The notes below the pieces were generated by a model. It saw only the letters and a program-made list of their open reading frames with translations. It did not search any database and was not told where the DNA came from. A stretch of DNA of 64,000 bases. Source: a virus. A program made the translations under genes and the position numbers. Below, in pieces: positions 8,108 through 57,756 of the stretch. The number at the start of each line of letters is the position of its first letter. The stretch's first letter is position 1. The stretch covers positions 1 to 64,000 of IMG/VR virus record IMGVR_UViG_3300044638_006161; one strand, given 5' to 3'.

Positions 8108-9030
8108 ATATCTTAAAAGAAATATTAGGCGATTACAATCGCGTTGGGAATGAGCATCTTTTCTTTTGTCCAAAGTGTAAACACCATAAGAAAAAACTTA
8201 GCATCAATCTATCAAAAGATAAGTTTAAATGTTGGGTATGTGATTGGAATGGCTCTACTATCCGCAGAATTGTCATTCGCTATGGCAGTTTTAGCCATAA
8301 TCGCAATTGGAATGAACTTCACGGAATTGTTGAAATATCAGATTACGATAAAATTTTCGATGCACCAGATACAACAGAAGAAAAAACAATACTTCCAGAA
8401 CTTCCACCAGAGTTTCAAACGCTTTGTAATCGGGATCAATCGCTAACTTCGCTACCAGTGCGTAGATATTTGCGTGAACGTGGTATTTCGCAGCAAGATA
8501 TCATGTTTTGGAAGATGGGATATGCAGTTTCTGGAGAATATGAAAATCGCGTCATCATTCCATCCTTCAATAATGAAGGCAAAATCAATTATTACGTCGG
8601 CAGACGTTATGACGGCGGCGGCTGGTCGAAGTATAAAAACCCCGATGTAAGCAAAGATCTGGTATTTAATGAACTTTATGTTGATTGGAGCAGCGATGTT
8701 ACAATCGTAGAAGGTGTTTTTGACGCAATTAAAGCGCGTAATGCTATTCCAATCCTTGGATCTACGATGCGTGAAAGCTCAAAGCTGTTCAGAGATATCA
8801 TAAAGCACGACCCAGCGATCTATATTGCATTAGACCCAGACGCCGAAAAGAAAGCAGAACGTTTGATTCTTGATTTACTGCAATACGATGCAGAAATTTA
8901 CAAAGTTCCAATACCATATGGTATGGATGTTGGAGATATGTCACACGAACAATTCTTGGAATGCAAACGGAACGCTAAACTAATTAATGGAAAAGATTAT
9001 TTTCTCTTAAATAAGTTGGTAAACCTATGA
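8086..9030 (+). CDS. DnaG-type primase with zinc ribbon and Toprim
   Basis: 314 residues. A CHC2-like zinc ribbon is formed by Cys28, Cys31, Cys49 and Cys52. The Toprim domain shows VEGVFDAIKA with Glu209 and the ALDPD acidic pair Asp250/Asp252. It should synthesise RNA primers at the fork with the DnaB-type helicase at 53836. It is shorter than bacterial DnaG and near the T4 gp61 length (342), with no helicase fused. The ATG overlaps the end of the RuvC-like gene; the next gene starts inside its last codons. Confidence is high for the fold. Confidence 0.88.
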   Translation: MSETKKLNILKEILGDYNRVGNEHLFFCPKCKHHKKKLSINLSKDKFKCWVCDWNGSTIRRIVIRYGSFSHNRNWNELHGIVEISDYDKIFDAPDTTEEKTILPELPPEFQTLCNRDQSLTSLPVRRYLRERGISQQDIMFWKMGYAVSGEYENRVIIPSFNNEGKINYYVGRRYDGGGWSKYKNPDVSKDLVFNELYVDWSSDVTIVEGVFDAIKARNAIPILGSTMRESSKLFRDIIKHDPAIYIALDPDAEKKAERLILDLLQYDAEIYKVPIPYGMDVGDMSHEQFLECKRNAKLINGKDYFLLNKLVNL

Positions 9031-9473
9031 AAATCAAAACAAGTTTTATAAAACAGTTAATAAAAGAAGAAGTAAGAAAAGTTCTTTATGGTGATCCTAT
9101 TAAACAAAAAGTTATTCACTTATTCGTAAAAGCAAGAGATGGCATGGATGATCCTGCTAATAAACAAGATTTTATACAGGATTTAATTCAATCTCTTGAA
9201 ATGATTGGAGTTACGCCAAATAAGGCTATTGATCTGTTATCTCCAGAAGAGATAGATCAAAATTTTTATATTCGTTGCAATGAGATTCACAATGAAATTG
9301 TAAAAATAACTGGTGGTAAGAAAAGAAATATAAATGCATTTGCCCACTTTCCAAGGATAGATCACGATCCAAATATTGATCAAGATCCAGATTTTATGCG
9401 TAAGCCAAAAAATGCTGCCGCTTATGATCAGCTGGACACAAGAAAGCACACAAAGAATTTAATACAGCCGTAG
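9027..9473 (+). CDS. Small protein with capsid-targeting-like N-terminus
   Basis: 148 residues of unknown function. The N-terminus MKIKTSFIKQLIKE matches a module seen in four other small proteins here (19544, 24666, 47990, 57361): a short basic amphipathic helix ending in (I/L)-K-E at residue 14, which resembles a T4 internal-protein targeting peptide with a gp21-type cleavage site. The remainder is helical and charged, with a His/Asp-rich C-terminal part (DHDPNIDQDPDF). It overlaps the primase stop by 4 nt, and its TAG stop is part of the next promoter's -35 box. Packaging into the capsid is inference. Confidence 0.55.
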   Translation: MKIKTSFIKQLIKEEVRKVLYGDPIKQKVIHLFVKARDGMDDPANKQDFIQDLIQSLEMIGVTPNKAIDLLSPEEIDQNFYIRCNEIHNEIVKITGGKKRNINAFAHFPRIDHDPNIDQDPDFMRKPKNAAAYDQLDTRKHTKNLIQP

Positions 9474-16228: not shown

Positions 16229-18196
16229 ATGGCTAATAGTAATTCATATACTAAAAAAAGTATTTCAAGCAACAATCCAAAAAATCAAGAGTCGCCACTC
16301 TATAATGCATTAACAAGGCTCTTTTCTGGACCAGTAATAAACTATCGTCAACAGTCGCAAATTCGCTTTAAACGTAGAGATTTAGATCGTTTTAAATTCA
16401 CTTCAACAAGTGGACAAAGCTTTAAGAAGAAAAGCTACAATCCATTTGAAGCCATACAAAGTAACATCATGGCTAATCAAAGCCGTGCAGAACGTTATAG
16501 CGATTTTGATCAAATGGAATTCATGCCAGAAATCGCATCAGCAATGGATATTTATGCAGATGAGATGACTACTTTTAATCAATTTAGACCAATTTTATCA
16601 ATCGATTGCAAGAACGAAGAAATAAAACAAATATTACATAGTCTTTACTACAAAACTCTTAATATTGAACAAAATTTGTATGGCTGGTCTCGTACAATGG
16701 TCAAGTTTGGTGATTTTTTCTTATATCTTGACATAGATGAAAGGATTGGAATCAAAAGTGTGCTTGGGTTACCTTCACCAGAGGTTGAAAGACTTGAAGG
16801 AGAAGACGAAACTAACCCAAATTATGTACAATTTCAATGGAACAGCGCACAGATGACATTTGAAAATTGGCAAGTAGCCCATTTTCGCATTCTTGGACAA
16901 GATAAGTATTCTCCATACGGTACATCCATCTTAGAGCCTGCTCGTCGCATTTGGCGTCAACTACAATTATTAGAAGATGCTATGATGGCTTATCGAATCG
17001 TCCGCGCTCCAGACCGTCGTGTATTTAAAATTGATGTTGGAAATGTTCCACCACAAGACGTTGAGCAATATATGCAAAAAATTATAGCTCAAATGAAACG
17101 CAATCAAATTGTAGATCCAAATACTGGTCGTGTAGATCTTCGATATAATCCAATGAGTATTGATGAAGACTATTTTATTCCTATTCGTGGAACAAGTAGC
17201 GGAACCAGCATAGATACACTTCCTGGTGGACAATATAATGGCGCTATTGACGACGTTAAGTATTTAAGAGATAAATTGTTTTCTGCTCTTAAAATTCCTC
17301 AAGCATATCTCGCAAGAGGTGAAGGCGCAGCAGAAGATAAAACAATGTTGGCGCAAAAAGACATACGTTTTGCTCGCACAATTCAAAGACTGCAAAAAGT
17401 TATAATTGGAGAATTAGAAAAAATAGGAATGATCCATTTATACACTCTTGGTTTTCGAAACGATGACATTCTTAAATTTAGTCTTCGTTTGCATAATCCA
17501 TCAAAATTAGCTGAATTACAAGAATTAGAACATTTAGATAAGCAATTATCTGTAGCTGGAAGCGCAAAAGAGCAAGGTTTTAGCAAAAGACACATATTTG
17601 AAAATATTCTTAAGATCGAACCACAAGAATTTGTTAGAATTCAAAGAGAGTTATCATATGATGCAATGCTATCTAAAAATCTTGAAGGTATTGGCTCCGA
17701 AGAGACCCCAGACGCTGGTGGCGGTGGTGGATTAGGTGGTGGTGAAGGCGAAACAATCCCAGCAATAGGAACAGAAGCGCCATCGGCAGGAGAAGCGCAA
17801 GAAACGCCAGAGGCAACTGGTGAAACAGGTAAAGAGTCGCCATTATTAGCCGCCCCAGCCCGCCGTGAAGATAAATCCGTCTTTTCTGTTAAGACACCTC
17901 ATCTAACTTCTGGCTCAAAAGGTAAATGGTATAGACCAGTCTCCTCTTCTCAAAACGGTTCAGGTGCTCGACAAAGATCATATTCTGCACAATCAGGAGG
18001 ACAAGTTGCATCTTCAGCGAGTAGAAATATATTTAAAGGTATGAGTGGCTTAAATACACTGTCAAGAGGATTAACTGAATCTGATATATTCGAAAAAGAC
18101 GAACAATTATTATTAGAAGTTCAAGAAAAAATTGAACAAATTGATAAAATATTTGGTAAAAAAGAAATAATTGGAGAAAACAAAAATGAAACATAA
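16229..18196 (+). CDS. Portal protein (gp20-like)
   Basis: 655 residues. It has the T4-type portal phrase of the form MPEIASAMDIYADEMT near residues 93-108, NLYGWSRTMVKFGDFF, and the conserved LFSALKIPQAYLARGEG region near 349-365. It is longer than T4 gp20 (524) because of a Gly/Glu/Pro/Ser-rich C-terminal extension from about 490, including a GGGGGLGGGEGE tract. The dodecameric ring is the DNA gate and head-tail connector. AAAGG before ATG 16229 lies in the last codons of terL. The C-terminal extension might be trimmed or disordered. Confidence 0.92.
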   Translation: MANSNSYTKKSISSNNPKNQESPLYNALTRLFSGPVINYRQQSQIRFKRRDLDRFKFTSTSGQSFKKKSYNPFEAIQSNIMANQSRAERYSDFDQMEFMPEIASAMDIYADEMTTFNQFRPILSIDCKNEEIKQILHSLYYKTLNIEQNLYGWSRTMVKFGDFFLYLDIDERIGIKSVLGLPSPEVERLEGEDETNPNYVQFQWNSAQMTFENWQVAHFRILGQDKYSPYGTSILEPARRIWRQLQLLEDAMMAYRIVRAPDRRVFKIDVGNVPPQDVEQYMQKIIAQMKRNQIVDPNTGRVDLRYNPMSIDEDYFIPIRGTSSGTSIDTLPGGQYNGAIDDVKYLRDKLFSALKIPQAYLARGEGAAEDKTMLAQKDIRFARTIQRLQKVIIGELEKIGMIHLYTLGFRNDDILKFSLRLHNPSKLAELQELEHLDKQLSVAGSAKEQGFSKRHIFENILKIEPQEFVRIQRELSYDAMLSKNLEGIGSEETPDAGGGGGLGGGEGETIPAIGTEAPSAGEAQETPEATGETGKESPLLAAPARREDKSVFSVKTPHLTSGSKGKWYRPVSSSQNGSGARQRSYSAQSGGQVASSASRNIFKGMSGLNTLSRGLTESDIFEKDEQLLLEVQEKIEQIDKIFGKKEIIGENKNET

Positions 18197-19543: not shown

Positions 19544-20056
19544 ATGTTAATAACAGAGTCACAAATCAGACAGATTATTAAAGAAGAAATTCAAGCAATG
19601 GTAGAGGAAGGTATTATTGACGAAGGATTTGCAGATACTCTTAGAAGAGGCGTAGGTCAACTTGGAGCAAGATTGGCTTCTGCGGTTGGCACAACTTCAG
19701 CGGATGTGGCTGACATAGAAAAAGCAAAAGCATCTGAAAAAGCTGCTGGAGAAGAAAAAGCTACTGCCGCTAAGAAAGAAATGGCTAAAAAACAAGTTGT
19801 TCAAAAAGCAAGAGAAGCTTCGCAAGCTCTTTTAAAAATTGATAATGATATGAGAAAAATTAGCGAATTATCGGGTCCATTAAGTTATGCTGATGGCACA
19901 AAATTAGATGTTACATCAATTGGGTCTGCTATTGAAGCTTTGATGCAAGAATTAGATAAAGTTGAGCAAAAAATTACAGGAGAAACTGGTCATACAACTG
20001 GAGGAAGTTTAGGGCTTCACCCAACTTTGAAAGAAAAGAAAGCAGCTAAAAAATAA
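19544..20056 (+). CDS. Prohead core / internal protein with targeting-like N-terminus
   Basis: 170 residues from ATG 19544, with AGGAG 8-9 nt upstream; the longer frame back to 19373 overlaps the previous gene and is rejected. It begins MLITESQIRQIIKE, the shared (I/L)-K-E module, followed by EEIQAMVEEGIIDEG with more possible protease sites. The middle is an Ala/Lys/Glu-rich helix (about 60-100). It fits a small core protein in the position of T4 gp67/gp68, packaged and cleaved during maturation. Ends with a Lys-rich tail. Role inferred from position and composition. Confidence 0.55.
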   Translation: MLITESQIRQIIKEEIQAMVEEGIIDEGFADTLRRGVGQLGARLASAVGTTSADVADIEKAKASEKAAGEEKATAAKKEMAKKQVVQKAREASQALLKIDNDMRKISELSGPLSYADGTKLDVTSIGSAIEALMQELDKVEQKITGETGHTTGGSLGLHPTLKEKKAAKK

Positions 20057-20483: not shown

Positions 20484-21101
20484 ATGAGCAAATTATTATT
20501 AAGAGAATTTTTTGAATTGTGCGAAGGCGGCGTCTGTCAAGATCTATTGACAGAGCAAGAAAAAATATTCGTCAAAGATGGTGGCTTGATGCTGTCTGGC
20601 ATCATGCAAAAAAGCGATCAAGAAAATGGGAATGGGCGTGTATACCCACGTAGAATTCTTGAACGTGAAGTAGAAAATTATCAAAAATTAGTTGAAGAAC
20701 GTAGAGCATTAGGTGAATTAGACCATCCTGATGATTCTGTCATTAATTTAAAAAATACATCCCACATGGTTACTAAAATTTGGTGGGATGGCAATAATGT
20801 TATGGGTAAAGTTAAGGTTTTAGACACACCATCTGGTAATATTCTTAAAAATTTAGTAAAAGGTGGTGTAAAATTAGGTATTAGTTCGCGTGGTCTTGGT
20901 TCTACAAGAAAAGAAAGCGGTAAAACAGTTGTTGAGGATGATTTTCAATTAATTTGCTTTGATTTCGTGCAAGAACCATCAACTCCTGGTGCTTTTATGG
21001 GACCAAAAGAGTTAGCGGAAGGCAAAACGCGAGACACAAGCAAAATATTCAGCAAGGCAGATAGATTGAATCGTTTGCTAAACGATATTATAGGAAAATA
21101 A
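20484..21101 (+). CDS. Prohead maturation protease (gp21-like)
   Basis: 205 residues, close to T4 gp21 (212). It carries the family landmarks: GELDHPD with His81, and LGISSRGLGS with Ser134/135, plus the opening GIMQKSDQENGNGRVYP. It should cleave scaffold, capsid and internal proteins after (L/I)-x-E sequences during prohead maturation. That specificity is relevant to the (I/L)-K-E modules noted in five small proteins here. It lies upstream of scaffold and capsid as in T4, but separated from them by a fibre block. Confidence 0.9.
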   Translation: MSKLLLREFFELCEGGVCQDLLTEQEKIFVKDGGLMLSGIMQKSDQENGNGRVYPRRILEREVENYQKLVEERRALGELDHPDDSVINLKNTSHMVTKIWWDGNNVMGKVKVLDTPSGNILKNLVKGGVKLGISSRGLGSTRKESGKTVVEDDFQLICFDFVQEPSTPGAFMGPKELAEGKTRDTSKIFSKADRLNRLLNDIIGK

Positions 21102-24665: not shown

Positions 24666-25115
24666 ATGAATAAACAAGATTTAAAAAAAATTGTTAAGCC
24701 TATAATCAAAGAGTGCTTAACAGAGATATTGTATGAACAAGGATTAAACAAATTAATTGAAGAGTCAATTAAGACAAAACAGCGTGAAGTAGTAAAAGAA
24801 AACCGCGAAGAAGAATCGTCTTATGAAGCAAAAGAAGCTCGGTTTATGAAGCAAACAGCTTCAAGCAAGCCAAACAAGTTACAGGAAGCTAAGAAGCAAT
24901 TATTACAGAAGATTTCAATGGGTGGATTTGACCCATTTGCAGGTTCAATGCCAATTGAAGGCAGTGAAGAACAAATTGTAGAAAATCTAAATCCTCAAGC
25001 AACAGTGTTACCAGGTATTCAAGGCTCTGGTGTCGATATTTCAGGGCTTTTGGGACAAAATAAACAGATCTGGAAAGGTCTATCAACTGCCTTAAATAAA
25101 GGCAAGAAAGAATAA
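24666..25115 (+). CDS. Prohead core / internal protein candidate
   Basis: 149 residues with AGGGG before ATG 24666. The N-terminus MNKQDLKKIVKPIIKE is a variant of the (I/L)-K-E module, here two residues longer. A charged helix follows (about 25-70), then a Gly/Pro-rich C-terminal part (SMGGFDPFAGSMPIEG, LPGIQGSGVDISGLLG). It lies just upstream of the bS21-like and scaffold genes, in the T4 core-protein neighbourhood. It could be an internal or core protein cleaved by the protease at 20484. Inference from position and N-terminus. Confidence 0.5.
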   Translation: MNKQDLKKIVKPIIKECLTEILYEQGLNKLIEESIKTKQREVVKENREEESSYEAKEARFMKQTASSKPNKLQEAKKQLLQKISMGGFDPFAGSMPIEGSEEQIVENLNPQATVLPGIQGSGVDISGLLGQNKQIWKGLSTALNKGKKE

Positions 25116-25489: not shown

Positions 25490-26908
25490 ATGTCAAATTT
25501 GTTAGAGCAAGCAATTATAGATGCTGCCGCGTTAAAAGAAGTGGCGATGAAGAACGCAGAAGCAGCGTTAATTGAAAAATATTCAAGAGAATTTAAAGAG
25601 TCTGTAGAAAGATTATTAGAGCAAGAGCAGCCAACCGTGGATACTGTTGCTTCTGCTGATCCATTAACAACATCTGCGGCTACTGATTCTTCTGGAATGC
25701 AATCAGGTACGATGCAAAATGGTCCAGAAGAGGCTTTTAGTGATGTAGGATCTTCTTTCTTGGAAGGCGAGCAGCATGAGTTAGTAACAATTGATTTTAA
25801 TGAATTAAAAAAACAAATATCCTCTGCGCTCTCACCACAGAGCCCAATGTTAAGCAGTCCAGAAATAGATCTTGCTACATCGGAAGAAGATTCAGAAGTA
25901 GCAACAGAAATTAATGAAAATTTTGAAGAGAGCCATGATGCTGGTGGACAAGACAAATCGTCACCAAAAGATGACGGACTTCATGAAGAAGAATATGAAG
26001 TAGAGGAGGATGTTTTAGTAGATCCTTTGGAAAAAGAAATAAGAGTAAAATCGGGGCTACCAGCAGAAGATTCAGAAGAAGAGCAAGATGAATATGAAGA
26101 ATCCTTAATGGCTCTTGAGGAGTTTGAGCTTGAAGAAGGTGCAGAGGACCAAATCCCAGCAGCAGAAAAAGCTGTCGGCGTTGCCCAAAACCGCTTAGGA
26201 AATTTAAAAGCACAAGCAGCAGAAGAGAAAGCAAAAGAAGAAGAAAAACTCGCTGCTATTAAATCTGGAAGCAGTGGCTTGGAAGAAGGTATTGAAATCT
26301 CTGAAGACGAACTGAAAGAATTAGCAGAAGCATTTAAAGTGGATCTTAAGATTGGTAACCTAAGCGACGGTCATATGGGAACAACGGAAAGAGAAAAACG
26401 AGAACAGCGCGCTCTTGAGTTGACTCTTGCCCGCGATGAAAAAGAAATGGAAGAAAGAAAGCAAGAAGAAGCAGAAATGGGTGATTTAAAGAAACAACTT
26501 GATGAATCAATTAAGCTTGGTGACTCTTTGGTCAAAGAAAATGATGAATTAAACGAAAAAATGTTAGAAATGCAGGAAAATTTACAAATTTTGAGAGAAA
26601 ATATTGAAAAATTAAGCATTTCAAACGCGAAATTACTATATACTAACAAAGTATTAGGAAATGCCTCGTTGAATGAGCGACAAAAACAACAAATTGTCGA
26701 AAACATTTCCAATTCTACCAGCGTTTTAGAGGCTAAAACCATCTATAACACGCTTCAAAGCACGGTGTCGGGTATTTCTTCTAAGAAACCGAAAGAATCA
26801 CTTAGCGAAGCGTTGATCCGTGGTAACTCGCCTTTCATAACGCGCAAAAAAGAAGAATCAGAAATTCCATTCGCAGAACGAATGAAAAAATTAGCAGGTA
26901 TAACCTAA
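25490..26908 (+). CDS. Prohead core scaffolding protein (gp22-like)
   Basis: 472 residues, highly acidic (long Glu/Asp-rich tracts at about 120-260) and largely coiled coil (290-400, with ENDELNEKMLEMQENL). It ends in a basic segment with PFAERMKKLAGIT, the kind of C-terminal tail scaffold proteins use to contact capsid protein. Location immediately before the major capsid gene matches T4 gene 22 (269 residues; this one is longer). It should form the prohead core and be degraded by the protease at 20484. AGGAG precedes ATG 25490. The ACTATTTA motif lies upstream. Confidence 0.8.
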   Translation: MSNLLEQAIIDAAALKEVAMKNAEAALIEKYSREFKESVERLLEQEQPTVDTVASADPLTTSAATDSSGMQSGTMQNGPEEAFSDVGSSFLEGEQHELVTIDFNELKKQISSALSPQSPMLSSPEIDLATSEEDSEVATEINENFEESHDAGGQDKSSPKDDGLHEEEYEVEEDVLVDPLEKEIRVKSGLPAEDSEEEQDEYEESLMALEEFELEEGAEDQIPAAEKAVGVAQNRLGNLKAQAAEEKAKEEEKLAAIKSGSSGLEEGIEISEDELKELAEAFKVDLKIGNLSDGHMGTTEREKREQRALELTLARDEKEMEERKQEEAEMGDLKKQLDESIKLGDSLVKENDELNEKMLEMQENLQILRENIEKLSISNAKLLYTNKVLGNASLNERQKQQIVENISNSTSVLEAKTIYNTLQSTVSGISSKKPKESLSEALIRGNSPFITRKKEESEIPFAERMKKLAGIT

Positions 26909-26941: not shown

Positions 26942-28717
26942 ATGTCAAACGGAATGTTAGAAAGATTAACAGAAGGCGTCGTTGAACGCAACATGTTAAA
27001 GGAAACCGAAGCAGTTGTTTCCAAATGGGAAAAGTCAGGTCTATTAGAAGGTCTAAAGTCAACTCGTCAAAAGAGCACAATGGCAGTTCTCTTAGAGAAC
27101 CAAGCTAAAGAATTACTAAAAGAATCAACCACAATGGCTGGTGGTGACGTACAAGGTTTCGCAGCAGTTGCGTTCCCAATCGTCCGCCGCGTATTTGCTG
27201 GCTTGATTGCTAACGATCTCGTAAGCGTTCAACCAATGAGCTTGCCATCAGGTCTTGTATTCTTCATGGATTTCAAGCGTGGTACAGACGTTGGTAATAT
27301 CGGTGATCGTGTATTTTCACAAGATGAATCATTCTTCGGTGATCGTTTGGGCGTGCAAATCACTGGCGGTGTTCGTGTTGATGGTGTTGCATTCGCTGAA
27401 AAAGGTTTCTACAACATGGCAAATGGTTATAACACATCACGTTATAACACATTCGTACCAACAGCCAGCGTAGTCGAAGTTGCAACATTCGGTGTTGCAG
27501 GTGCTACAGCCGAACAAAAATCATTAGTACGTTGGGATGCCGACTTATTAAATGATTCAACCGTAGTATCGGCTTCAGTTCTCGAAGTTGCTCTTTCCGC
27601 GTTATCACAAAGCGCGCTATTAGCGGTACAAGACGTATTCGCGCTTTCAGTTGCTCAAGCTGCCTCTTATGTAGCTGGTACAGCTGGCGATGCAACAGGT
27701 TCAGCACTTGGTGGCACTACACCAAGAGTTATTCGTCGTCTAAGCAAGATCATCCAAAGCGGTTCATCTGGTGCAACAGCTGGTGTACCAGCACTACAAT
27801 TCGTAGTTGCTGCTGGCGGTTCAGCTGCTAAGGCGACTGTTCTTTCAGGTTCACACGCGCTTCTTTCATACCCAATCAAGGACAATCTACAAAGCGTCGG
27901 CACAAATGCTCTCGGCGCTATCGTCGGTGACGCACCTTGGACATTCGAAGGTTCAGCAGCAATTCCAGAAATTGAATTGAAGGTTGATTCATTCTCAATC
28001 ACTGCTCGTACCCGCAAGCTCAAGGCTGCATGGACACCAGAATTAGGTCAAGATTTGAACGCATACCACAACTTGGATGCAGAAGTTGAATTGACCTCAA
28101 TGTTGTCAGAACAAATCGGTCTTGAAATCGATCAAGAAATCATGAACGATCTTGTCAAGGGTCAAACAGCTGGCGTTAAGTACTGGTCACGCCGTCCAGG
28201 TAAATTCGTTAACCGTGATTCAGGCGTAGAAATCACTGGTACATACTCACCAGACTTCACTGGTAACGTAAGCATGTGGTACGAAACACTTGTTGAAACA
28301 ATCAACGACGTTTCAGCTCTCATCCACCGTAAGACATTACGTGGTGGTGCAAACTTCCTCGTTTGCGGTCCAGAAGTTGCAAACATCCTTGAATTCACTT
28401 CAGGATTCCGCGCTTCAGTAACTGCTGACGCAGAGAAGGGATCAATCGGTGCAGTTAAGACCGGCGATCTAAACAAGAAGTGGGATGTTATCGTTCATCC
28501 ATACTTCCACCGTAACGTAATTCTTGTCGGTCGTAAGGGTGCAAGCTTCCTCGAAAGCGGATATGTCTATGCTCCATACGTTCCACTACAAAGCACACCA
28601 ACCATCTTCGATCCAGACACCTTCGTACCACGTAAGGCTGTTATGACTCGTTATGGTAAAGCAATGGTTCGCCCAGATATGTACGGCTTAGTTGTTGTAC
28701 AAGATCTATTAGGTTAA
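26942..28717 (+). CDS. Major capsid protein (gp23-like)
   Basis: 591 residues; T4 gp23 is 521. The N-terminus (MSNGMLERLTEGVVERN) precedes a helical region. An E-loop-like region has FMDFKRGTDVGN, and the central and C-terminal parts show SFSITARTRKLKAAWTPELGQDLNAYHNLDAE and GYVYAPYVPLQSTPTIFDPDTF, landmarks of T4-type capsid proteins. Codon use is clearly optimised: almost all Arg codons are CGT/CGC and most Phe/Asn/Ile codons end in C, unlike neighbours that use AGA. A strong terminator follows. AGGAG before ATG. Confidence 0.93.
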   Translation: MSNGMLERLTEGVVERNMLKETEAVVSKWEKSGLLEGLKSTRQKSTMAVLLENQAKELLKESTTMAGGDVQGFAAVAFPIVRRVFAGLIANDLVSVQPMSLPSGLVFFMDFKRGTDVGNIGDRVFSQDESFFGDRLGVQITGGVRVDGVAFAEKGFYNMANGYNTSRYNTFVPTASVVEVATFGVAGATAEQKSLVRWDADLLNDSTVVSASVLEVALSALSQSALLAVQDVFALSVAQAASYVAGTAGDATGSALGGTTPRVIRRLSKIIQSGSSGATAGVPALQFVVAAGGSAAKATVLSGSHALLSYPIKDNLQSVGTNALGAIVGDAPWTFEGSAAIPEIELKVDSFSITARTRKLKAAWTPELGQDLNAYHNLDAEVELTSMLSEQIGLEIDQEIMNDLVKGQTAGVKYWSRRPGKFVNRDSGVEITGTYSPDFTGNVSMWYETLVETINDVSALIHRKTLRGGANFLVCGPEVANILEFTSGFRASVTADAEKGSIGAVKTGDLNKKWDVIVHPYFHRNVILVGRKGASFLESGYVYAPYVPLQSTPTIFDPDTFVPRKAVMTRYGKAMVRPDMYGLVVVQDLLG

Positions 28718-46837: not shown

Positions 46838-47962
46838 ATGAAGAAAAAAGAAAATAGCGGAGCAGGAAAAGTTTCAATCGCTGATATGCGAGCAATGATT
46901 AATAAAAAATTAGGTCGCGAAGTTGCATATGACTTGCAAGAAGATAATCCAACAGAAGTTACAGAATGGATTTCTACAGGATCACGTTGGCTTGATTCAA
47001 TCATATGCCGTGGTAAGTTAGCTGGCGTACCAGTTGGTAAGATTACAGAATTAGCTGGTCTTGAAGGCTCTGGTAAAAGTTATATGGCAGCACAAATTGC
47101 TGCTAACGCCCAAAAACAAGGTATTTCAGTTGTATACTTTGATAGCGAAAGCGCTATCGATCCAGACTTTCTTGTAAAAGCTGGTTGCAATATTGAGAAG
47201 CTACTGTATGTTCAGGCAGATTCAGTAGAATTCGTTCTTGAGACAATTGAAGATTTGCTGAAGACTACAGATGAGAAGTTCTTATTTGTTTGGGATTCAA
47301 TGGCATTAACTCCAAGCAAAACAGACATTGAAGGTGATTTTGATCCACAATCTTCAATGGCAGTTAAACCACGTATTCTTGCAAAAGGTTTGTCAAAGTT
47401 AATTCAACCAATCGCTAATAAACAAGCAACCCTGTTGATTCTAAATCAATTAAAGACCAATCTTACAGTTCAAAATCCAAAATACGCAACAGATTCAGAA
47501 AAATACTCAACTCCAGGTGGAAAAGCTTTAGCTTATTCATACAGTTTGCGCATTTGGTTAACTGGTCGTAAAGCAAAAGATTCATTTGTTATTGATGAAC
47601 GTGGCTATCGTATTGGTTCTGAGGTCAAATGCCGTCTTGAGAAATCACGCTTTGGTTCACAGGGTCGCGAATGCTTCTTCCGTATTATGTGGGCAGATCG
47701 TGTTGGCGTTCTTGATGAAGAAAGCATCTTTGAAGCGGTTAAGCCATTTATCAAGCAAAGTGGTGCTTGGTATGAATTAGACGTTGGCGGTAAACCAAAG
47801 AAGTTCCAAGAAAAGCAATGGGTGGAATTAATGAAGGGTGATGAAGAATTCCAGAAGACTGTGTTTGATCTAATGGAAAATGAAGTTATTGTTAAGTTTG
47901 ATACCCGTGAAGGCGATGCAAAAGCTTTCTATAATTTAGAGGGTGAATCTGCTGCCGAATAA
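46838..47962 (+). CDS. uvsX: UvsX/RecA-type recombinase
   Basis: 374 residues from ATG 46838 (GGAG 6 nt upstream); a TTG-started longer frame at 46811 is rejected because it begins inside the terminator. Walker A is GLEGSGKS (74-81), Walker B is FLFVWDSMAL with Asp153, and NQLKTN corresponds to the DNA-binding L2 entry. It is similar in length to T4 UvsX (391). It should form presynaptic filaments on gp32-coated DNA for repair and recombination-dependent replication, fed by the Mre11-Rad50 fusion. The stop overlaps the next regulatory motif. Confidence 0.93.
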   Translation: MKKKENSGAGKVSIADMRAMINKKLGREVAYDLQEDNPTEVTEWISTGSRWLDSIICRGKLAGVPVGKITELAGLEGSGKSYMAAQIAANAQKQGISVVYFDSESAIDPDFLVKAGCNIEKLLYVQADSVEFVLETIEDLLKTTDEKFLFVWDSMALTPSKTDIEGDFDPQSSMAVKPRILAKGLSKLIQPIANKQATLLILNQLKTNLTVQNPKYATDSEKYSTPGGKALAYSYSLRIWLTGRKAKDSFVIDERGYRIGSEVKCRLEKSRFGSQGRECFFRIMWADRVGVLDEESIFEAVKPFIKQSGAWYELDVGGKPKKFQEKQWVELMKGDEEFQKTVFDLMENEVIVKFDTREGDAKAFYNLEGESAAE

Positions 47963-47970
47963 CTATTTAT
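47963..47970 (+). promoter_or_regulatory. Putative late promoter motif among early genes
   Basis: CTATTTAT directly after the uvsX stop; the 11-mer TAACTATTTAT is identical to the one after the RNR gene at 57320. It lies 19 nt before ATG 47990. A late-type element here would separate the small downstream gene from early uvsX expression. Confidence 0.5.
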
Positions 47971-47989: not shown

Positions 47990-48247
47990 ATGAAAATTAC
48001 TAAAGAATATTTAAAACAATTGATTAAAGAAGAGTTAGAAGGAGTTTCTGCAACTCCTGTATTTGGTAAATCAGAAAGCTTAGAAGATGAAATGCTTAAA
48101 AGAGTAAGAAGCTTAATAGGCTTTATGCAGCAACAAGATACATACACGACTTTAACAGATACTACTTATGGAATTAGTCCTAAATTATTTTTAGCATTAG
48201 AAGATGCATTAATAAATTATGTTAATAAAGTTGGTAAAGAAGATTAA
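47990..48247 (+). CDS. Small protein with capsid-targeting-like N-terminus
   Basis: 85 residues from ATG 47990, with GGGAG 7-8 nt upstream; the in-frame ATG at 47969 falls on the regulatory motif. It opens MKITKEYLKQLIKE, nearly identical to the protein at 57361 (MKITREYLRRIIKE), with (I/L)-K-E at residue 14. The rest is a short helical domain. Preceded by the ACTATTTA motif and followed by an early promoter, it looks like a separately and late-expressed unit. A packaged internal protein is inferred. Confidence 0.55.
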   Translation: MKITKEYLKQLIKEELEGVSATPVFGKSESLEDEMLKRVRSLIGFMQQQDTYTTLTDTTYGISPKLFLALEDALINYVNKVGKED

Positions 48248-55463: not shown

Positions 55464-57322
55464 TGTCACAGTGGTCTAACTTAGCAAAAGTAGTTTATAA
55501 GCGCACGTATGCCCGTAAAGATACTGGCGTTTTAGAGAATTGGAGCGACACAGTTGATCGCGTTATCCGTGGAAACGTGCAAGGACACAACGTAAGCGAA
55601 GAAGAGATTGCTCGTCTAAAATATTATCTAACTAATCGCAAAGCTGGTCCTGCTGGTCGTGGTTGGTGGTATAGCGGCGCTCCATCACACAAAAAACTTG
55701 GCGGTGTTGCCCTAAATAACTGCTGGTTTGTTGCTGGTGATGAATGGACTAATTTCGTATTAGCACAAGATTTGCTAATGTTAGGCGGCGGCGTTGGTAT
55801 GTCTGTAGAACACAGATTTGTCAGCAAATTACCAAGAGTTAAAAAGGACGTTAATATTGTTTCAAGGGATACAAAAGACGCTGATTTTATAGTCCCTGAT
55901 TCACGCGAAGGCTGGAATGAATTGACTCGTAGAGTTTTAGAATCATTCTTTGAAACAGGGCGCTCATTTTCGTATTCAACCGTTTGCATACGTCCTGCTG
56001 GTGATCCTATCCACGGCTTTGGTGGCACAAGCAGCGGTCCAAAACCTCTCGTATTATTCGTAGAAAAATTGTGTGCAATTTTGAAGGCACGCGAAGGTCA
56101 TAGAGTCAAGCCGCTCGACGCCGCAGACATTCTCTGCTCAATTGGTGAAATGGTTGTTGCTGGAAATGTTAGACGTTCAGCAATTATTATCCTTGGAGAT
56201 CCTTGGGATAAGGAATATCTAAAAGCAAAACGTTGGGATCTTGGCAATGTTCCAACACAACGCGCTATGGCTAATTTTTCAGTTGTTGTTGACGATACAG
56301 AAGATTTACATCCTCTATTTTGGAAAACATACGAAGAAGGTGAACCATTTGGAATTGTTAATAGAACTAATATTCAAGCTTTTGGAAGAATGGGAGAGCA
56401 AAAAGCGGATACAGCAATTGGAGTTAATCCATGCGCCGAAGCAACACTTGAAGATGGCGAACCATGCAATCTCCAAGAAATTGCATTACCAAACCTTGCA
56501 AATGAAGCAGAATTTATCGAAGCTGCCAAGCTAATGCATCGTTGGGGCAAGCGCGTAACAACAGAAAAATATCATCAACCAAAATGCGATGCCGTTGTAA
56601 AACGCAATCGTCGTATTGGAACTGGTATCACAGGCTGTTTGCAAAGCCCATTGTTTACTCCAGATGTTCTTGATAGGGCATATGCCGCTATTCAAGAAGA
56701 AAACATCGCATACTCAAAAGAGTTAAATATTCCAGTGAGCTTAAGAACAACCGTGATTAAACCATCTGGAACTATTAGTAAAGTATTTGATTCTTACGAA
56801 GGTGTACATCCAGCTTACTCGCGCTATATTATTCAACGTGTTCGCTTTAGCGGCAATGATCCTTTACTTCCACTATTACGCGAAGCTGGTCACTATATGG
56901 AGCCAGTAATGCGCTTTGACGGAACATTAGACCACAACACGCAGGTTGTTGATTTCTATGTTGCTGCACCAGAAGGAGCACCAGTTGCCGATGAAGATTG
57001 GACAACTTGGAAGCAATTAGACGTTGTTAAACTTGCTCAAAAACACTGGGCAGACCAAGCAGTAAGCGTCACTGTTTACTATCGTAAGGAAGAATTACCA
57101 GCACTAAAGGCTTGGTTAGCGGATAATCTTAAATATTTAAAGACTATTTCATTCCTTTGCCATAGCGAACATGGTTTTAAACAAGCACCAAAAGAAACAA
57201 TCACCAAAGAACAATACGAGAAGTTATCAGCTAAGATTAAGTCAATTAATACTGATAATGCTGGAGATGGTGATTTACAAAGTTCTATGGAGTGTGAAGG
57301 AGGCGTTTGCCCGATTAAATAA
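55463..57322 (+). CDS. nrdJ: Adenosylcobalamin-dependent (class II) ribonucleotide reductase
   Basis: 619 residues, the monomeric RTPR-like form. Active-site pairs: Cys87 in ALNNCWF and Cys335 in EPCNLQEI as redox pair; Asn322, Cys324 and Glu326 in VNPCAEA as substrate and thiyl-radical residues. GVGMSVEHR, TVIKPSGTISK and the C-terminal CEGGVCPIK (Cys611, Cys616) complete the family pattern. It reduces ribonucleotides using B12, so it works with or without oxygen and depends on host cobalamin. Strong AAGGAG before ATG. No intein. A thioredoxin gene lies just upstream. Confidence 0.93.
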   Translation: MSQWSNLAKVVYKRTYARKDTGVLENWSDTVDRVIRGNVQGHNVSEEEIARLKYYLTNRKAGPAGRGWWYSGAPSHKKLGGVALNNCWFVAGDEWTNFVLAQDLLMLGGGVGMSVEHRFVSKLPRVKKDVNIVSRDTKDADFIVPDSREGWNELTRRVLESFFETGRSFSYSTVCIRPAGDPIHGFGGTSSGPKPLVLFVEKLCAILKAREGHRVKPLDAADILCSIGEMVVAGNVRRSAIIILGDPWDKEYLKAKRWDLGNVPTQRAMANFSVVVDDTEDLHPLFWKTYEEGEPFGIVNRTNIQAFGRMGEQKADTAIGVNPCAEATLEDGEPCNLQEIALPNLANEAEFIEAAKLMHRWGKRVTTEKYHQPKCDAVVKRNRRIGTGITGCLQSPLFTPDVLDRAYAAIQEENIAYSKELNIPVSLRTTVIKPSGTISKVFDSYEGVHPAYSRYIIQRVRFSGNDPLLPLLREAGHYMEPVMRFDGTLDHNTQVVDFYVAAPEGAPVADEDWTTWKQLDVVKLAQKHWADQAVSVTVYYRKEELPALKAWLADNLKYLKTISFLCHSEHGFKQAPKETITKEQYEKLSAKIKSINTDNAGDGDLQSSMECEGGVCPIK

Positions 57323-57330
57323 CTATTTAT
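57323..57330 (+). promoter_or_regulatory. Putative late promoter motif after the RNR gene
   Basis: CTATTTAT immediately after the RNR stop, forming TAACTATTTAT as after uvsX; the minus strand reads TATAAATAG. It lies 30 nt before ATG 57361 of a small (I/L)-K-E protein. Confidence 0.5.
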
Positions 57331-57360: not shown

Positions 57361-57756
57361 ATGAAGATCACAAGAGAGTATTTAAGAAGAATCATCAAGG
57401 AAGAGTTAGAGAGAACATTGAATGAAGAAGTGGAACAAGCGCAAGATGAGGGTGACATAGTGCTTGGAAGAAAATTAGTAGAATTAGAAAAAAAATACAT
57501 TCCATCAAATGTTCAAAGCGATATTTTTAACTTAGCTTTTAATTCAGCTACTGGATTTGCTTCAAAGATGAGAGATGGCGATGACTTAATGAGATTTATA
57601 GCTCCTCATGTTGCAAAACAATTTGCCCCATACTTCAAAGAAGTTATTAACTTAATAGGGCAATACCCAGTATTAAAAAATCCAGCAAAAGGCGAGAGAT
57701 ATGCTTTTGCCTCTAAACAAAAAGCATATCAAGAAGAAAAAAATCAAAAACTATAG
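57361..57756 (+). CDS. Small protein with capsid-targeting-like N-terminus
   Basis: 131 residues; AAGGGG lies 7 nt before ATG 57361. The N-terminus MKITREYLRRIIKE is almost the same as that of the 47990 protein, followed by an acidic stretch (ELERTLNEEVEQAQDEG) with more (L/I)-x-E sites and then a helical domain. An ACTATTTA motif precedes it although its neighbours are early genes. It is the longest module-bearing protein in the early region, and a packaged, perhaps injected, protein is inferred. Confidence 0.55.
   Translation: MKITREYLRRIIKEELERTLNEEVEQAQDEGDIVLGRKLVELEKKYIPSNVQSDIFNLAFNSATGFASKMRDGDDLMRFIAPHVAKQFAPYFKEVINLIGQYPVLKNPAKGERYAFASKQKAYQEEKNQKL

Follow-up and report, generated by a model that had tools for sequence, protein, structure and literature searches.

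A short N-terminal tag shared by otherwise unrelated proteins of T4-like phages is a candidate capsid-targeting propeptide

Phage proteins that are injected into the host are usually found only through proteomics of cultured phages. Among the described systems, the T4 internal proteins IPI, IPII and IPIII, which are small and otherwise unrelated, carry a short N-terminal tag that starts with MK and ends in [IL]xE (PMC9026906, PMC3012670). Ten residues are enough for targeting, and residues 8 and 10 of the tag (P3 and P1) govern its processing; the internal proteins themselves are described as basic (PMC9026906). In SPN3US and phiKZ the prohead protease cleaves the propeptides of head proteins after glutamate, and the SPN3US head carries proteins that are ejected (PMC5694885, PMC9026906).

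All of these features of the T4 tag (its shortness, its position, the MK start, the [IL]xE end and its presence on otherwise unrelated small proteins) recur in a peptide encoded by the virus record IMGVR_UViG_3300044638_006161. The record is 69.6 kb long; the window, the stretch of DNA analysed here, is 64 kb of it and contains a T4-type head cassette. Four proteins of the window begin with the peptide:

9027..9473, + strand: tagged protein of 148 aa; tag at 9027-9068; distant orthologs in relatives (L298, L301)
19544..20056, + strand: tagged protein of 170 aa; tag at 19544-19585; in the head gene cluster, 5′ of gp21
47990..48247, + strand: tagged protein of 85 aa, starting MKITKEYLKQLIKEELEGVSATP; tag is residues 1-14, at 47990-48031
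57361..57756, + strand: tagged protein of 131 aa; tag at 57361-57402; second site TLNE at residue 22

The four share the consensus M-x-I-x-x-x-x-[LI]-[KR]-x-[IL]-I-K-E (the module). A pattern search of the entire 69.6 kb record finds exactly these four modules and none with the reversed pattern, and shuffling residues 2-40 of 60 window proteins gives an expected count of 0.0 against the four observed. A common module of 14 residues with an I-K-E end, as described in the earlier note, is thus exact in these four proteins. The start of 47990 has a GGGAG ribosome site just 5′ of it, a context that an in-frame ATG at 47969 does not have. The bodies behind the window tags have no family match in PHROGs or Pfam (weak matches to HlyE and STAR_dimer lay below the cut-off and were dismissed), and tblastn with the 57361 protein gave chance matches only. 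The 19544 body has partial similarity to the L006, L039 and L005 bodies.

The earlier note had counted five such proteins. The fifth is a different kind of protein:

24666..25115, + strand: conserved head-region protein, predicted long helix; N-terminus MNKQDLKKIVKPIIKE; orthologs in relatives

Its orthologs lie just 3′ of gp21 in nearly all relatives and the N-terminus of the family reads KKIIKPLIKECLxEVLxEEG, with an invariant Pro12 within the tag-like stretch. This N-terminus of its own, the orthologous family beside gp21, Pro12 and the predicted long helix led us to reject 24666 as tagged cargo and to exclude it from the set of window tag proteins; it is a candidate head-core protein of the window's lineage.

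In an alignment of 121 tagged proteins E14 is the sole invariant column; M1, K2 and I12 are each conserved in at least 90%, no conservation extends past residue 15 and the bodies diverge directly after residues 14-15. Among relatives selected by residues 1-9 only, E14 is found in 164 of 170 and I/V12 in ∼98%, and in the remaining six an [ILM]xE comes one to four residues later. (One further match to residues 1-9 was a terminase-like chance match and was set aside.) The constrained I12 and E14 match the requirement of the T4 tag at P3 and P1.

Selection acts on the peptide and not on the DNA, since the tag codons vary at synonymous sites while the amino acids are kept: between paralogs within one genome pS is 0.36-0.68 and pN 0.12-0.17 over codons 2-14, and codons 23-45 are saturated. 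A module acting as nucleic acid, as a translation start enhancer or a recombination site with incidental translation, would account for its beginning at the first codon and for its marking the point of cassette exchange. It is nevertheless extremely improbable, given synonymous sites near saturation within a genome alongside conserved amino acids, and given copies that lie inside proteins and have no start codon. These second copies, without a start Met, occur within six proteins (L059:1233, L101:4293, L211, L215:4511, L221:9714 and L233:5032). All six have E-[NSG] directly before the copy, and the proteins are perhaps polyproteins that are cut on both sides of it.

The head genes of the window include a protease that could process such a tag:

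16229..18196, + strand: portal protein gp20 (PF07230, E 1e-77)
20484..21101, + strand: S77 prohead protease, gp21 homolog, the proposed processing enzyme (PF03420, E 6e-36; PHROG 207, E 5e-59)
25490..26908, + strand: scaffold-like protein in the gp22 position before gp23, by position and composition; without a family match
26942..28717, + strand: major capsid protein gp23 precursor (PF07068, E 1e-69)
27113..27124, + strand: predicted gp23 maturation site L58-L59-K60-E61/S62 (ELLKE/STTMAGG, the slash marking the cut), conserved in gp23 relatives

According to its profile, 20484-21101 is a Peptidase S77 (PF03420; 124 bits against a curated cut-off of 27). Each of the 18 module-positive records that reach 100 kb encodes the protease, as do 23 of 25 overall, counts that ignore kinship between records; the 484 kb LR756508 has both module and protease. 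Of the control records, 16 have no S77 above the cut-off, and none of these has the module. Named large phages serve among the controls, since scanning with random 15-mers produced no control contig longer than 100 kb. The module is missing from nine T4-like phages, all named ones, that do have S77, and T4 itself has the protease without the module; S77 alone does not predict it. In LR756508.1 (156507-158102, locus L280) the S77 match is interrupted inside a single open frame (576 aa) and falls into two parts, which looks like an intein-like insertion in the prohead protease.

The position of the gp23 cut in this lineage is deduced from homology to T4 gp23. In the aligned gp23 relatives [LV]L[KR]E/[SAQ] is kept before the mature N-terminus, with departures in immuto (IVSE/A) and in one distant relative (MINE/S). 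The end of the tag, [IL]I[KR]E, matches this [LV]L[KR]E site at P4-P1. In the T4 record the internal-protein tag (MKTYQEFIAE/A) and gp23 (FLTE/A) are also alike, so that in both lineages the end of the tag is similar to the gp23 site, while P4 and P2 differ between the two lineages.

An uncut module could serve as a docking helix for the head or another virion component, incorporated with its cargo, with I-x-E as one face of the helix. It would explain the amphipathic stretch (residues 5-22 are helical in a low-confidence AlphaFold model of the 57361 protein on its own, whose pLDDT of 47 is too low for its fold to be interpreted), the frequent conservation of E15 and L16 as well, and the long helix predicted for 24666, which has a similar stretch. 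We regard this as unlikely: a P3/P1 pair is not needed for docking, yet E14 is the only invariant residue and its exceptions shift the glutamate rather than lose it, the bodies diverge directly after it, and the residues around it agree with the gp23 site in the same phages.

The module probably serves one lineage of T4-like phages as a capsid-targeting propeptide, which the S77 protease would cut and whose cargo would lie in the head and probably be ejected. The basic, amphipathic M-K-I-T-K-x-x-L-K-x-I-I-K-E would dock a late-made protein on the scaffolding core while the head assembles, and the S77 prohead protease (20484-21101) would then cut behind an [IL]xE in the tag or just after it. 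After cleavage the cargo would remain in the head alongside the DNA; being exchangeable and phage-specific, it would probably be ejected with the genome and act on the host or on host defences, as the T4 analogy and a few domain matches suggest. The candidate capsid-targeting peptide of the earlier note thus has indirect support along several independent lines (the gp21-type site, the S77 protease, the gp23-site match, the exchange of cargo and the late-promoter-like elements described below), although 24666 drops out as an example of it.

The cut need not fall at the same residue in every protein. Residue 15 is glutamate in two thirds of the unbiased set, unlike the S or A that follows the gp23 site, and cleavage at 14 is uncertain for most members for this reason. 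When residue 15 is glutamate, a second [ILVM]xE follows at residues 18-26 in 77% of proteins (22% when shuffled), mostly at 21-22; when it is A, S, G or T, the figure is 35% (16% when shuffled). The association is present within genomes too (Mantel-Haenszel odds ratio 6.2, chi-square 20.7). In E15 members the second [ILVM]xE is often at 18-22 and is then followed by A, G, S or Q; in the window it is found in 57361 and 19544 and is missing from 47990 and 9027. The short form, with a small residue 15, may thus be cut after E14 and the long form, with E15, often after the second site at 18-22, or both sites may be used.

Three of the four tagged genes (9027, 47990 and 57361) sit amid replication genes. 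Two of them are preceded by a short element:

47962..47970, + strand: late-promoter-like element ACTATTTAT, 28 bp before the 47990 start
57322..57330, + strand: late-promoter-like element ACTATTTAT, 39 bp before the 57361 start

On the + strand of the window ACTATTTAT occurs at 2698, 20326, 25443, 30650, 47962 and 57322, standing before scaffold, sheath and fibre genes and, in the replication region, before 47990 and 57361. Its density is 1.13 per kb between genes and 0.016 per kb within them (∼70-fold), with 58 occurrences on the coding strand and four on the opposite strand. In relatives, tagged genes away from the head cluster often have it in front of them. Enrichment was not seen over the tagged genes of all module phages and is limited to the window's own clade and to genes outside the head cluster. 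Its position suggests that ACTATTTAT is the late promoter in this clade; in sequence it differs from the T4 late promoter (TATAAATA, coding strand).

The replication-gene surroundings, and the GNAT and exonuclease-like domains among the cargo, would suit a module that works in the infected cell, interacting with a phage enzyme or affecting localisation or stability, and has no link to the virion. Such a role is quite improbable in view of the late-promoter-like elements before 47990 and 57361, the many tagged genes of relatives just 5′ of gp21, the link to S77 and the resemblance to the gp23 site. Gene 9027, amid replication genes and without a late-promoter-like element before it, does count against the capsid-targeting reading.

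The cargo is exchanged at the boundary of the tag. At the 47990 locus, 3′ of a recA/uvsX-like gene, the window was compared with a sister phage (L003/L295; gp21 92% identical). Identity is 88% upstream, 91% over the module (first 15 codons) and 76% downstream, and the promoter-like element is common to both phages, while the two bodies are unrelated, their similarity not exceeding that of shuffled sequences. The cargo has thus been swapped as a cassette. A Pfam search of 121 bodies gave few matches; leucine-rich repeats, pentapeptide repeats, a GNAT acetyltransferase and a weak exonuclease-like match are recognisable. The GNAT cargo has no relatives among named phages, and the exonuclease-like cargo has none among named phages or solved structures. 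On average the cargo is acidic (about -6 per 100 aa), which, set against the basic T4 internal proteins, also counts against capsid targeting.

A search of relatives for further proteins with the module, as the earlier note had suggested, found several hundred distinct ones in related phages. The degenerate DNA pattern used on the viral collection demanded E15, so that its totals are skewed towards E15; among the matches listed there are several module copies per contig and 450 distinct tagged proteins, whose bodies form 342 clusters (294 with a single member). Among long records the copy number reaches 20 (reversed pattern, 0). Tagged genes are often in tandem and many in relatives are directly 5′ of gp21. 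One contig found via a bacterial MAG holds 26 copies (reversed pattern, 0), and 16 tagged proteins were read within one 8 kb stretch of it. Over named phages the reversed pattern gave no matches, or two chance matches when loosened. The whole collection of bacterial and archaeal genomes yielded only eight module stretches, on five MAG contigs; the bins of two of these have an S77 gene, and on one contig the module array and an S77 gene stand together, so that these are probably giant phage contigs within the bins. Dense module arrays (L325-L330) lie on PBIO01000025.1 and NHDW01000006.1, both of which are filed under bacterial MAGs. A tblastn search of named phages with a 22-residue consensus found three weak matches, of which LR756508 alone is real, probably because short queries rich in lysine and glutamate score poorly. 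An Rfam search gave no match, and full-text literature searches found no paper on such a tag or its motif; nor did virion proteomics come to light for any phage that bears the module.

The wider proposal is that the large uncultured T4-like phages of one widespread group each carry a virion-delivered arsenal of up to ∼25 exchangeable proteins, under one cleavable N-terminal tag, sometimes with a second internal tag and so with polyproteins that may be cut in the head, and that hundreds of injected families can be predicted from the tag alone; we give this an even chance. The head cargo of many uncultured phages could then be listed from sequence alone. Nearly all of the cargo families are without known function, and some, by analogy with T4 IPI, would likely counter host defences.

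SPN3US and phiKZ, unlike the module phages, have neither the module nor a PF03420 match. A nearer parallel is the Flavobacterium phage immuto, a cultured relative, in which the N-termini MENFDLKKFLVE and MKKSELVKLIKE, with an LxE or IxE end, are likewise found on unrelated proteins (L244, L305, L310 and L311, some of them beside gp21); these are different peptides with only two to four copies each and are known from sequence alone. T4, like the module phages, has an S77 prohead protease in its genome and a tag whose last four residues resemble its own gp23 site. The module has 14 (or 18-22) residues compared with ten in T4, K or R at P2 and I or L at P4 where the T4 tag has a small residue and F, up to ∼26 tagged proteins per genome compared with three IPs, and cargo that is acidic on average, unlike the T4 internal proteins. 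By eye, it has no sequence similarity to MKTYQEFIAE beyond MK and I-x-E; lacking this homology, it would work like the T4 capsid-targeting sequence without being a member of it. If this is correct, the T4 internal-protein system is not a special case of three proteins but one form of a general delivery system, in which each lineage has a tag matched to its own protease.
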